Shown one piece after another: positions 27,601 through 33,600 of a stretch of DNA of 64,000 nucleotides (the stretch's first letter is position 1; every line of letters begins with the position of its first letter). A program made the position numbers and the translations under genes. Source of the stretch: Bugula neritina (lineage: Eukaryota; Bryozoa; Gymnolaemata; Cheilostomatida; Bugulidae); contig OZ037772.1 of assembly GCA_964035545.1 (NCBI GenBank), positions 6,563,389 through 6,627,388 on the forward strand. The letters are read 5' to 3'. Below the pieces are notes generated by a model. That model was given only the letters and a program-made list of their open reading frames with translations. It was not told where the DNA came from and did no database searches.

Positions 27601-30600
27601 AATCTCCAGGACTGTCACTATTGTGGATCCTGACTGATGCACTCTGGTTGTGCTGTGTGTGACCACTGTCTATATACGGGGTTGTCGACTCTAGTATGAG
27701 CTGCAAATATCATATGATTACTGTATTTCTATTTGTTGAGACTGTTGCCATACCAACCATAAGAGAAACATAATCTGATTGGTTTAGCAGTGGTTCCATA
27801 CATGAAAAATCAGTAAGTACATAATAATCCTTGATTGGTATAGATTATGGGTTAAACATGATTGATTAGTTTATTTAGAATAAACTGAAGGCTATAAAAA
27901 TATCGATATCAACTCTTAATTCTATGAAGACAACTTGTATACATAATTTTTTAAATGGATATCAGAGACATGGCAGGAGTAGACAGTGAGGGTGTTGATG
28001 AGAAAGAGGAAGCTGAAATGGTACAGACATGAGTGCAGGAGAGGTTAGAAGGAGGACAGAAAGTGTTGGAGACAAGAGAAAAAGGAGATCATATGAAAAC
28101 ACTGGTGTATAGACACTATCACTGCATTTCCATTACTTCGCAATATGATGATAAGGATGAATTTGTGTAAACTTGTGATTTTCATGAACTTATGGCTGTG
28201 ATTTCATTTGAGGCAACTGTTTCCAAACATCAAATAAAAAATATATTTGCGTGGTGCAATCCCTGCAAGGTAGTGCATGGGACTAGATATGAAACTCTGG
28301 AAAATTATAAGCACAAACAAAGCAACATTGTTAGATAGAATTCATTAACTGAGTTGGCTATGCAGAAAGACTAAAACTGAAGCAGTTATAACTATAATAA
28401 GTAAGTTGAAATTTTAAAAGCAAATAAAAATTCTCCACGCTCCGATTATGCTTAAAATTTACAAATCTTGTTTTTAATATACCTATCTTAGTTCACATGA
28501 AGTTTTATTTTCAGCAGAATTCGGTTTGATTAGTGATACTCACTGAAAAGCAGCACCAGGAATGGTTTCCAGCGTGATTCTCAACCATGATGATCCTTCC
28601 TCTGTCGTATGACTCACTATTGATACCGGTTATTCTGCAGTTATCATCTTCTGATTCTAGAGGGTAATCTGCAGCCTTGTAACCGGTGAAACTTTCAACA
28701 TCGATATAGTAGGAGCCACTGGCAGATTTCTGGAGAATTCTAGAACAATAGATGATGCTGTATTACTTTATACTAAAATATAATACACTATAATGTGATT
28801 ACTATATAATACAATATAGTATGCTATATTATTATTATATAATTGCTATATATTATGTAATACACTATGCATGTAATTATTATCTAATACAGTATAATAT
28901 GCTTGTTGATTACTATATAATATATTAAACTATGTGATTACTATATAATATAATATATGTGAATACAACATATGATGTAATATGCTATGTTATCAATATA
29001 TCAAATGGTATAATGCACTATACGATTATTATATAATGATATATAATAAACTATATGGTACTACTATAACATGTATAATATAATATTATTTAGGCTGTGT
29101 GATAATAATATTAAAGTGCATATTATTATGCTATGCAAACAATAATATATGATTCTCAATAACATCATAAACATAATATGTGAGGTATTATACACTATGG
29201 CATTACTTTAATATACTAAACTATGTAATTACTATATTACATGATATAATATTTTGCAGCTTTTGAACATTCTTATCCTGTGCTGATGGCTGGTTTATAT
29301 AAAGTTATGTATTCATCTATTATTACCTACGGCACAAAGTAAGTTGGTATAAATAGTAGAGCAATTCAAATAATTATATATGCTTTACGATAGTGTATCA
29401 ATTTATTACATATCACTCACATTTCAATAAAAACAAATTGTTGCAAAATAGTAATTTACAGGCCATTATAAAAAGTATAAACCATAATCAACACAATTAT
29501 AAAATAATAATATTTACATAAGCTATGGAATAGTTCTCTACCTTTCAGACAAGAGATAACTGGTTTTACTTATGAAACATGTGCAAATGAGTTGATTTAC
29601 TAATCATAATCTCAAAAGATTGATGTACAGTAAATTATAATGTACTATTGCAAGTAGAGAATAAAATACCTGTAGCATATCCGTAAGGAGTGTCTTGGGG
29701 CCGACCAGTTGGTTACTGTTGGCACACTAACAGACCTTTTCTTTCTCCCTAGACTCTGGAACAGGAAGTCTTCGTAATCTCCAGAAGGGGTGGTCTCACT
29801 CGCTTCCAGTATCCAGTGATCAACTTTCAGTCTAAATCTATAAAATACATATAAAGTGTATTCAATCTATTTAAGATTTCTCTAAAAGCTCACGCAAGTT
29901 AATAGTCGCAATCTCCGTGAAAAAGCCCTGATAGAAAAGTTTTGTTAGATCTGGCTAAAGATGTATTTATATATGTGGCCCAGGAGCAATTATGACTGGA
30001 TGCTCTTCCTAACATCACCAATAGCCTTTGCTGAGGTTCAAACTCATGACTCCGTGATTACTAAGCAAATACTTTAACCCCTAGACCACGGCTGCTTTCT
30101 TTTGAGATCTCTATACTTAATGTCACAAGTTATAGCAAATAGGTGAGTCGTATTTGAGCATTAGATAGTGAACTTCTGTATCAACATGATTTCAAAGAGT
30201 TTCAGCTATACAGAAATGTAATTAATTAAAACTCAGTACTTTTTTAGCAAAATTATGAACACATATTGACGATTGGAGCCTCGACAGTCTTTAATTTGTA
30301 AGGTTCAGGCGAATTAGCCAATGCACACAATGAAATATGTAAACTAGGCATTTGATTACTTTACATCACCCTCCCCTCCACCCCTCCCCCCCTTTTATTG
30401 ATGTTGACAAACGAAAAAAATGGGAGTAAGTTTCATTCCACAATTTAGAAAAGCTAAAAACTTCAAGAGTATGCTATTTAACTTTTATTTTTTGTCAAGA
30501 AGATTGCTTTCTGAAACTTAGAACTCATGATAGATTTGGCGAAGAACATTCTAGAAGAGAAAGTACAGCTCACCCTTTACACCTCTGCTGATTGTCTTCT

Positions 30601-33600
30601 TTGTTGAATCTCATCTTCAGCTGCAGATTGCTAGAGTCTGAATATGAAGAGGTCATGGTAGACAGATTTGCAATTGGAGTTGTCTCGTCTGTCAACAAGT
30701 GTTCTTCCTCAAATATCAAACTTGAAACCTTTTAATATAAAATAAAACGAGTTTCATCACAGACATATAGTATAAACACATACTTTTTAATATATTTGTT
30801 TTCTGTTGCTAGGAATTCCGTAGTCTTTGTGGTGCAATGGTTAGCATGCTGGAGATCACAGGTGCGATTCCCAATGGGGGCAAAAATATACATTTTCAAT
30901 TTTACAACCTTTTAAGGTTTTAAAACCATCGCAAGCTTATGGAAAGTTTTTTACACCTGAAAAATATTTCCTTCACAGAATTTTATGCTTATTTTACAGA
31001 ATATTTTAATACAGTTATTACACCGAACAATTTATTAGATATATAATTTCTAACCTTCAAAGGAATGTTTTTGACATCTCGGATGCTACCATCTACCCAC
31101 AATTCCACATCTAATGTATAATTTCCTCTCCTCAGCGCGGTAGCCGTAAAGGAAGTTAGACTGATTTTGCTGTCTCTATCAAGTGTGAGGTTGATGTGAG
31201 GGTAGGAGTTGAGAATGAGATTCTTGAAGCAGAAGGCCTCGTCTGCAGACGTTAGTAGTCTCACGTGAGCCTGAAATAAATATGAGTTAACTCCATCACT
31301 GGTCTTTTGGAAACTTTTCATTCAGAAGGATGATTCAATTTATAATTGTTTAAAAAAGCAAAAATTTTTTTTGATTTGAAAAAAAGTCATATTATTTCTA
31401 TTTAAAACTTTTCAATGAAAATTCTTTGAATAAAATACGTAGGGTGATAGAATTAGTTAGCATGCAAATTAACTTGTTAAAAGCAGTGCATGATGTAAGA
31501 CTTATTGCTTTAGTATTGATTAGGTATTGATTGGATTTTGGCCAAATATGTTCGGATGTTTGTTGTTCAAATGCGGACAGGAATGCTTTTGAATTTGCTT
31601 AGTAAGGATGCTACATTATTTAAAAAAAATTATAAAAAAACTATTATTGCTATTGAAAGTGCTTTTGTAAAGAAATTATTGGATTCGAAAACAAAACTTG
31701 GAAAGACGATGACTCAGTTAGCGTGGAGATAGTCTTGTTAAAAGCAGTCCATTATGCAAGCACTATTGATTTGATATTAATTATAAGTATTGGTTAAGTA
31801 TTAACTGAATATTGACTGATCATTATTTTTTTTAATCTTATTACACAATAAACATTACTTTGTGTTATGGCTGAAAGTAAAGTTGCTACATAAACTTACA
31901 GTAACAAGTTCTGTGACATTTGGAGCAATCACAGAAATTTGAATTTGGAATTGCTCTCCCTCAACGAGATCTGATGGGGGTGCTTTTATAGCCAAATAGA
32001 GATCATCTAGTATTTGAAGTCTCATTGGTTGAAACGTCTGCAATCCAAATCTTGGGCTAACCATCAACCCTGAGACTGTCCAATCATTGATGGAGTAGCT
32101 TGGTAACTGAAACCTAAACTTTCCATCATCACATCTACAATGAACACTTTTGGTATTTAGCATTCATTTTGTATTTCTTTTGATTAAATACATTGTAACT
32201 GCAAAATAAATGAATTAAAGTTGCTCACACTATAATGCATGTCTCATTGAAGTTTAAACTTTGAAAGTACCAAAGCCAGAAGTTCTCTATAAAGTTAGAC
32301 TTATTTCCATAAATACTGCTTTTGTCAAATGAATCAATGTTTTCCTGGCTTATAACCCGCGACTGTATAAGTACAACAGCTATTATGATGAATTAGAGTT
32401 TGTTTGGCTGAGCATGATCAGCAAACCCTTCCTGTTTGGAATGACTTTGCAGTAGAGAAGATAACTCTCATATGCTGAGTTATTCGTTACTCGAAGGATT
32501 CCAACCAGACTTCTGCTTAAATTTTTTTGTTGGCTTGTTACATTTAAATGAATGACTAACAGTATTAGATTCAAAGTAAGGTTAAGTACAGTTAACTACC
32601 TCATGCCTTCACTTGATGCCTGGGATTGAAGTTGTTCACTGCACTCATGTAAGCTCCGCCTTTTTCTCAACTGCAAAGCACTTTCATCATCGAGAGAGAA
32701 CCAATGTTCTGGCAGTCCAAGATCTCTAAATTCTGGGCCATTTGGCAGCCAGTTCAGACGAGGAATAGTAACTGGAGAAGTCAATGGTTGAGCTGTTGTT
32801 GTAGTCGATTGAGATTCGTGATTGAAAAATCGGCCGTCTGCGTGACGTATTCTATTCTGGGAAATGCTAGTAGGAGTTGTGGGCCTCCTGCCAACTATTA
32901 TGCTACTAGTTGAAGACACTGTTGCTATGGTGACTAGATTTAGTTTGTTAGAGTCATTTTCAGAGTGTAGGTTGGGGGAGCACAGGGAGACAACTTCAAC
33001 TCCAAAGCTGCTCGTTGTAGAAGATAGTCTATATGGACTGTTTATCTTTGGTTGTATCTGAAACAATGATGTGTTAAAATACAGGATTCTTTCCCAAAAA
33101 AGTTGCATAAGCGAATTCCAATAGAATTAACATAATTTGGCAACCACTTTTTATAAACAATGAATTTCTAATTATTCACACTCCATGGAACACGGTAACA
33201 ATTTCTGACGTCAGAAAAGTCAACCGAAACATTTCCAGTTTTCTACGAATTCTTTGAAAAAGGTTCTAATTCATCACAGCTATTTTATTTACATATAGTT
33301 TAATATTTAGGCTGCAGTTATTAAAAACTATAAAGCGAAACTATGGATTACATAATTAAACAAAAACAAACATGTTGATAGCGAAATTAAAACTAACTGT
33401 CTATTTCTTGCTACCTTTGGTATGTTTATGAGAGAAGTTTCAGGTGATGCTAGCAGAATAAAGGTGTTATCAGCAGCTGATTGTGGTCTGATGTCACTTT
33501 GATTGACAGGAGAGGAAATCTGCAGTACCACATCGTCACCAGGCCTGTACTGAGCTTTGTCAGCATTTATCTGCAGAAATTAAATTTGACCATTATTTCT

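Follow-up and report, generated by a model that had tools for sequence, protein, structure and literature searches.

Comparison with described complement proteins

C3, C4 and alpha-2-macroglobulin (A2M) work through their thioester domain (TED). The losses described in the literature drawn on here, as far as its accounts extend, strike the thioester bond and not the domain, as in C5, MCR and several molluscan C3-like proteins. According to parts of one study (PMC8960428), the C3-like proteins that it covers have 13 domains including the TED, with the anaphylatoxin domain (ANATO) present as well outside the gastropod forms; the thioester bond has been lost repeatedly among them, and ANATO has been lost in gastropods. 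All three BgC3 proteins, in passages of another (PMC7016707), have a C345C domain and have lost the thioester site but not the domain, and in a section of a third comparing C3 domain sets across phyla, the sole entry without A2M_comp is a wagtail sequence with A2MR-C345C only (PMC11312191). Here, we describe a C3-like gene of the bryozoan Bugula neritina from which the whole TED is absent and which is open and well-spliced as assembled. It lies in a stretch of 64,000 nucleotides, hereafter the window (assembly GCA_964035545.1, contig OZ037772.1, positions 6,563,389 to 6,627,388). On the evidence of the assembly, this TED-less gene is real, and it is unusual.

Absence of the thioester domain

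The gene lies on the minus strand and comprises 25 exons in one frame of 1386 amino acids, whose sole stop codon stands at the end (untranslated regions fall outside the model), and all 24 introns have GT-AG borders. A stop-free run of 1386 codons has a naive chance of about 10^-37 at the gene's composition, a figure to be read knowing that the exons were chosen as open. By eye, the N-terminus (about residues 1-23) resembles a signal peptide, and no transmembrane or glycosylphosphatidylinositol (GPI)-type C-terminus was seen. The protein carries 23 N-glycosylation sequons and ends, after C345C, in an Arg-rich tail, RRHRRHKRQRRRRARH (window 24647-24700), with no counterpart in the aligned C3, C4 and C5.

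The original prediction of a C3/A2M-family protein from which the entire TED is missing is supported, as neither a TED nor a thioester motif follows MG7. The GCGEQ motif was not found in the protein, the nearest thing to it being CSEQ at residue 747, upstream of MG7. When a TED profile built from human C3 and five same-genome models was run on all stop-free stretches of at least 15 amino acids in the six frames of the window, the best E value was 3.3; as a positive control, the same profile found six stretches (E 6e-4 to 9e-17) of an unseen paralogue at 22.56 Mb of contig C4. The Pfam TED model matched 14 places genome-wide and none in the window, a search that is not decisive alone because it missed the real TED of that paralogue. 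The gene in question is MCR-like with an LDLa-type insert (by eye) and occupies positions 22547367-22565134 of contig C4, its TED unreported by the Pfam TED model. The longest coding-strand stop-free stretches are 59 amino acids in intron 17 (326 bp) and 52 in intron 18 (736 bp), as against TED lengths of 221-346 amino acids in the six sequences used, the shortest of which, paralogue model C2, misses one exon that Pfam matches. A TED hidden in the introns or elsewhere in the window is ruled out by Pfam, the TED profile and these short stretches together, and the earlier observation that the flanking introns hold no candidate exons stands. So do the in-phase junction of exons 18 and 19 across GT-AG borders and the 736-bp intron with a short interspersed nuclear element (SINE) between them.

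Two further C3-class features are absent. Pfam matched no anaphylatoxin domain in the C3-like protein, which has a single cysteine in residues 609-740; genome-wide, ANATO likewise gave no Pfam match, a weak negative since the model may miss divergent domains. The CUB domain split by an inserted TED is also not seen: a part fitting CUB2 is retained, and none fits CUB1.

Position of the gap

The gap probably lies at or near the exon 17/18 border, a placement that is well supported by alignment: it falls in intron 17, not intron 18, because exon 18 fits the end of CUB2 better. The exon 18 peptide 'KMRFNKEDNQQRCKG' fits the CUB2 end, not the CUB1 end, and exon 19 agrees with an MG8 start. Anchored one-gap global alignments, with the MG7 tryptophan motif and the C345C anchor fixed and three scoring settings, placed the missing block at residues 909-910 against C3 and 913-918 against C5 at every setting, and at 918, 918 and 913 when summed over C3, C4 and C5; the exon 18/19 border (residue 962) scored 63, 51 and 44 below the best sum. 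An unanchored split against C3 was also best at 909-910, and residues 912-1160 scored 45 against CUB2-MG8 of C3, where the maximum among 40 shuffles was 41. MAFFT did not open the long gap.

A register test set C961 on the CUB2/MG8 cysteine against the exon 19 tryptophan on the tryptophan of C3's CUB2. The C961 register, with exon 18 as the CUB2 end, won all nine comparisons (three references by three settings), by margins of 9-22 with C3, 54-114 with C4 and 45-50 with C5. For a CUB1 profile on exon 18, 1644 of 1860 scored shuffles did as well, and CUB2 fits better. The anchored alignments and the register test rule out a gap at intron 18, and the register test rules out exon 19 as CUB2. The original prediction had taken exon 18 for the end of the first CUB segment and exon 19 for the second, with the breakpoint at the junction between them. 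These assignments have to be revised: exon 18 fits the CUB2 end with C961, exon 19 fits an MG8 start with a C4-like furin linker (though one alignment drew CUB2 there), and the breakpoint agrees with a position in intron 17, some 50 codons upstream of that junction, with CUB1 and the first part of CUB2 also lost.

Family of the protein

That the protein belongs on the C3/C4/C5 side of the alpha-2-macroglobulin superfamily is well supported by C345C, the cysteines and a tree, although it would be better named a TED-less C3-derived protein than C3. It is not a TEP by definition because it has no TED; the C3-class features ANATO and CUB-TED insertion are absent, and the C345C cysteines and the position in the tree are those of the class. 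Two Pfam domains exceeded their cut-offs, the bait-region domain PF07703 (A2M_BRD; 26.9 bits vs 22.7) and the A2M/MG7 domain PF00207 (21.5 vs 21), and MG2 and NTR/C345C fell under theirs in the whole-protein search. On shorter pieces, NTR (E 7.7e-4, 19.7 bits vs 21.9) came in the expected order and A2M_recep (MG8, PF07677; E 0.028, 15.5 bits vs 21.7) in the expected place, both again under the cut-off; the MG8 assignment is backed by cysteines and by a shared RIC-x[2] intron. All ten sequence matches to PDB are C3-, C4- and cobra-venom-factor-type chains with E values of 0.18 to 0.97, which marks the protein as very divergent.

For the cysteines, human C3, C4 and C5 segments were compared with PDB chains and cut at the inferred gap. 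Eleven of the 18 cysteines in residues 721-1386 (853, 961, 1082, 1119, 1136, 1141, 1143, 1151, 1223, 1283 and 1353) align to cysteines common to all three proteins; of the other seven, one falls on a C4-only cysteine and six on none. Among those matched are the anchor of C345C (C-x4-C-x-C) and the cysteines of MG7, CUB2/MG8 and the end of MG8, which form long-range pairs in C3; within the C345C module the matched set comprises C1136, 1141, 1143, 1151, 1223, 1283 and 1353. A tree of MG7 and MG8 (nine rows; model C4c omitted, C4b without MG8) placed C3, C4, C5 and the C3-like gene apart from the genome's A2M-, TEP- and MCR-like genes, with support of 97/99.

Intron phases in same-genome paralogues

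Six A2M-family paralogues were modelled in the genome with a crude gene finder that returned 22 of 25 exons exactly in a self-test, with 26 predicted. By eye, models C4a and C4b are A2M-like tandem copies with GCAEQ, C2 is TEP/CD109-like with GCGEQ, and C1a, C1b and C4c are MCR-like, carrying an LDLa-type insert and lacking a thioester motif. A TED is present in all six. Like the end of exon 17, the MG7/CUB1 border is marked by a phase-0 intron in four of the six (C2, C1a, C1b and C4c), and three (C2, C1a and C1b) have a phase-0 intron inside CUB2, with C4a having one further on; five share the phase-2 intron after RIC-x that separates exons 19 and 20. None of these models has an intron that matches the phase-2 intron 18 in position; C4b and C4c have one of phase 2 at another point in CUB2, which may result from skipped exons. 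Because both flanking introns are phase-0, a deletion that takes CUB1, the TED and the beginning of CUB2 leaves the reading frame intact; in C1a and C1b, the block between the two introns spans about 4.6-4.7 kb. As the start of exon 18 is about a dozen residues longer than the CUB2 intron would give (second alignment), the exact border of the deleted block is uncertain. The proposal of an exon-block deletion at an intron thus agrees with the phases shared with the paralogue models, but at intron 17 and not at intron 18.

No C345C was seen by eye in the paralogue models, and the two NTR matches in the genome lie elsewhere, in a search that is a weak test since it missed the C3-like gene's own C345C. 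Model C4b has a collagen-like Gly-X-Y run (contig C4 4552653-4553092) in the same open frame before FPDTWLWDL, around the bait region; in its tandem copy C4a no more than a trace of the run is visible by eye.

Repeats, assembly and neighbouring features

The SINE of about 210 bp in intron 18 (window 29884-30096) is high-copy and present on many contigs of the assembly. Forty further matches to the queried stretch, those scored out of 1684 candidates, all fall on it, and seven further copies or pieces lie in the window near 1972-2179, 2730-2942, 14030-14145, 15262-15468, 21820-22028, 23821-23869 and 52144-52335. The suggestion that repeats helped the deletion does not survive for this element: a SINE-assisted deletion at intron 18 is ruled out, and the SINE is incidental because it is high-copy and in the wrong intron. 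Intron 17 holds a decayed tRNA-like stretch at window 30820-30884. Among the 40 of 1684 candidates scored in the 216-Mb assembly, a search that could miss diverged copies, the locus had neither a near-identical second copy nor a stray contig.

Elsewhere in the window are a tRNA-Cys gene (54384-54455, minus strand), an Rfam tRNA match (19197-19268, plus strand) and an exon of an FMN-dependent dehydrogenase (hydroxyacid oxidase-type; 19361-19672) that adjoins the C3-like gene. In the mitochondrial COX1, serine positions carry AGR, which matches the invertebrate code. Additional COX1 genes, differing in make-up, lie on contigs C17, C196 and C65, that of C17 without TGA codons, and suggest the presence of cobionts or contaminants in the assembly.

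Table 1. Features of the TED-less C3-like gene, in window coordinates.
Feature	Position	Strand	Basis
Whole coding gene, TED-less C3-like protein, 25 exons, 1386 aa	24647..50117	-	24/24 GT-AG, one terminal stop
Exon 1: start codon, signal-peptide-like N-terminus	49984..50117	-	signal peptide by eye
Exon 2: MG1-like	44267..44448	-	domain by position
Exon 3: MG1 end / MG2 start	43153..43329	-	by position
Exon 4: MG2	42518..42591	-	PF01835, E 4e-4, under curated cut-off
Exon 5: MG2	39909..40043	-	Pfam, as exon 4
Exon 6: MG2/MG3	38280..38322	-	by position
Exon 7: MG3-like	37687..37774	-	by position
Exon 8: MG3-like	37240..37321	-	by position
Exon 9: MG3/MG4-like	36802..36898	-	by position
Exon 10: MG4-like	36015..36136	-	by position
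Exon 11: MG4-like	35503..35670	-	by position
Exon 12: MG5-like, bait-region domain begins	34995..35162	-	PF07703 at aa 463-576
Exon 13: bait-region domain	34215..34412	-	PF07703, 26.9 bits, above curated cut-off
Exon 14: bait-region end / MG6 ('YRPGDDVVLQI')	33415..33570	-	Pfam; phase-0 intron before matching stretch also in models C4a, C2
Exon 15: Ser/Thr-rich linker, one Cys ahead of furin-type site, LPEHW motif, furin-type site; no anaphylatoxin domain found	32600..33057	-	Pfam, motif
RKRR, furin-type site, aa 739-742	32656..32667	-	motif only
Exon 16: MG7	31900..32134	-	PF00207, 21.5 bits (cut-off 21)
Exon 17: MG7 end, closing at phase-0 MG7/CUB1 intron	31055..31270	-	comparison with paralogue models
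Intron 17 (326 bp): inferred site of missing CUB1-TED-CUB2(part) block; decayed tRNA-like sequence inside	30729..31054	.	alignments, intron phases
Exon 18: kept C-terminal part of CUB2, ending at CUB2/MG8 cysteine C961	30574..30728	-	alignments, cysteines, register test
Intron 18 (736 bp): high-copy SINE at about 29884-30096, no TED	29838..30573	.	profile and repeat searches
Exon 19: MG8 start with DYED/RKKR linker resembling C4 alpha/gamma junction	29670..29837	-	alignment, register test
RKKR, alpha/gamma-type furin site, aa 994-997	29735..29746	-	motif only
Exon 20: MG8; 5' border is the shared phase-2 intron (RIC-x[2])	28544..28739	-	A2M_recep E 0.028, under cut-off; paralogue introns
Exon 21: MG8 end, C345C anchor CSQHGCLC	27507..27700	-	cysteine alignment
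Exon 22: C345C/NTR	26905..27086	-	NTR E 7.7e-4, 19.7 bits, cut-off 21.9
Exon 23: C345C	26274..26405	-	cysteines, NTR
Exon 24: C345C end	25667..25784	-	cysteines, NTR
Exon 25: C-terminal extension, Arg-rich tail, stop codon	24647..24929	-	gene model

Discussion

We lean, with moderate confidence, towards descent of this gene from a C3/C4/C5-class complement gene by in-frame loss of a block, leaving a C3c-like scaffold that would act non-covalently. One exon block between two phase-0 introns, comprising CUB1, the whole TED and the first part of CUB2, would have been lost, and we infer a deletion here rather than some other route. The protein has two furin-type motifs, RKRR at residues 739-742 and RKKR at 994-997 (identified at the level of motifs), and a three-chain product is expected for that reason. 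The RKRR site lies after LPEHW, not before it as in C3. The predicted product would be secreted and cut by furin-type proteases into disulphide-linked chains of about residues 24-742, 743-997 and 998-1386; provided that the C3 pairings apply here, C853 and C961 would link the middle chain to the last. Its architecture would be that of C3c, with an MG ring, MG7, a CUB2 stub, MG8 and C345C, and it would have no C3a part to release and form no bond to a target. Covalent opsonisation is impossible because the TED is missing, as the original prediction had concluded. The most likely role is that of a non-covalent, complement-type C3c-like scaffold or ligand working through the MG ring and C345C, which might serve as a receptor ligand, an adaptor or a competitive regulator.

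Several results weigh against this reading. The anchored alignment against C4 alone put the gap at 856, 856 and 922; the exon 17/18 border itself (residue 911) scores 18, 16 and 14 below the best sum; an unanchored averaged profile set the gap at 855-856 at all three settings; and none of 15 splits against five same-genome paralogue models was best near 911, although these models are too distant for such use. The first alignment, with the TED alone cut out, placed exon 19 on CUB2, and with C3 the register test favours C961 over that assignment by no more than 9 points under the loosest setting. The CUB2 profile alone is weak for exon 18, being equalled by 58 of 1988 scored shuffles, and Pfam found no match on the CUB stretch of the protein. 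The paralogue exon borders come from the crude predictor with its 22 of 25 exact exons. Two C345C cysteines of C3, 1537 and 1646, are without a partner column, and the branch of the C3-like gene is very long (3.47 changes per column) with a weak pairing with C3 (66/77), which makes its place in the tree unsure. The support as a whole comes from the assembly.

The main functional rival is a structural or adhesive scaffold that is not an immune ligand and has lost its TED as opsonisation was no longer needed, which we think unlikely but worth serious attention. Insect MCR has a structural role at septate junctions, and three genes labelled MCR-like by eye, none with a thioester motif, are retained in this genome; the want of any ANATO match genome-wide, the Arg-rich tail and the 23 sequons would also suit such a scaffold. 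Against it stand the retained C345C and most of the C3/C4/C5 cysteine pattern, together with the lack, by eye, of a transmembrane or GPI-type C-terminus. An assembly artefact, in which collapse or misjoin removed several kb of TED exons from intron 17 of an ordinary C3, seems improbable. Two TED-bearing models do hold about 4.6-4.7 kb between both introns, a size that a misjoin could drop, and intron 17 is short at 326 bp; but the three contigs holding paralogues are large (24.8-35.6 Mb), no near-identical second copy or stray contig appeared among the 40 of 1684 candidates scored, and the gene is not otherwise an ordinary C3, because ANATO is also missing and the divergence is great.

We give little credence to a decaying relic, transcribed or not and functionless. 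The very long branch and the several Pfam domains under their cut-offs would fit decay, but the 25 exons contain no stop, frameshift or broken splice site and the cysteines are retained. Slighter still is the chance that the TED was never present and that the gene represents an ancestral TED-less branch of the family: nothing favours this directly, as the TED-less state alone gives no direction, and it is opposed by the TED in all six paralogues found, by the match of the exon 17/18 border to the introns that flank the block in TED-bearing models, and by TED and A2M profiles that each match in four of 14 prokaryote control genomes.

If block loss from a C3-class gene is correct, a full-length C3-class protein without a TED would mean that the MG/C345C scaffold can persist on its own, and it would offer a natural model for what C3c-like parts do alone. 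Expressed as drawn, it would be a complement-family protein with no means of covalent attachment to its targets. In the paralogue models, the phase-0 introns on either side of the block may provide a simple route to such a form, one that could be sought in other genomes. More tentatively, and with more doubt than conviction on our part, the only C3-class gene found here (a statement that rests on genome-wide family searches, some of which missed the C3-like gene itself) may be a genome-encoded C3c, so that complement would work in this animal without covalent C3 opsonisation and the protein would act from the outset in a form that arises in vertebrates only once C3 has been inactivated.

Comparison with known systems sets the gene apart in several directions. 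The three-chain invertebrate C3-like proteins, where PMC8960428 treats them, have a TED and this gene does not; the alpha-gamma site is described there as highly conserved among C3-like proteins, with exceptions. Human C4 is similar in its furin-type site and DYED-type acidic stretch between CUB2 and MG8, at the alpha/gamma junction, and differs in having CUB1 and a TED. C5 and the gastropod type I C3-like proteins are alike in having no thioester bond, but, in the accounts cited, it is the bond and not the domain that they have lost, and C5 retains the TED segment; the gastropod forms have also lost ANATO and the alpha-beta site (PMC8960428, in part). Biomphalaria glabrata C3-3, in the portion of PMC9363628 concerned with it, has a truncated complement domain interval in which the thioester region was not found, but its authors judge the sequence incomplete and C345C is missing there. 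That protein and the wagtail entry (part of PMC11312191) are the near-cases to the claim that no described family member lacks the domain outright; the claim is uncontradicted within the open-licence literature, where no case was found, and absence from print is not thereby established. The paralogues in this genome, labelled by eye as MCR-, TEP/CD109- and A2M-like, have the MG fold and shared intron positions in common with the C3-like gene, but all six have a TED and none a C345C seen by eye.

The closest likeness is to C3c (PDB 2a74, 2ice), which has the same domain set of MG array, MG7, CUB2 stub, MG8 and C345C with near-identical borders. The C3c chains of 2a74 cover residues 1-170 and 555-897 of the C3 query, with the first 2ice fragment extending to 188; the stretch absent from the C3-like gene is about residues 168-541. 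As the missing stretch is nearly what is removed in C3c, the gene would encode roughly what vertebrates reach by degradation. At the level of sequence, the C3c-like architecture of MG ring, MG7, CUB2 stub, MG8 and C345C without CUB1 or TED is present, with MG1 and MG3-MG5 assigned by position only, and the sequence is very remote, with PDB matches of E 0.18 at best. As set out in sections of PMC4451739, factor I, assisted by its cofactor CR1, generates C3c from iC3b, and C3c is set free whereas C3dg remains attached to the target; the C3c part is bound by CR4 and the MG ring by CRIg. C3c is thus a proteolytic product that arises after opsonisation, whereas in the bryozoan gene that shape is encoded in the genome and a TED is never deposited.

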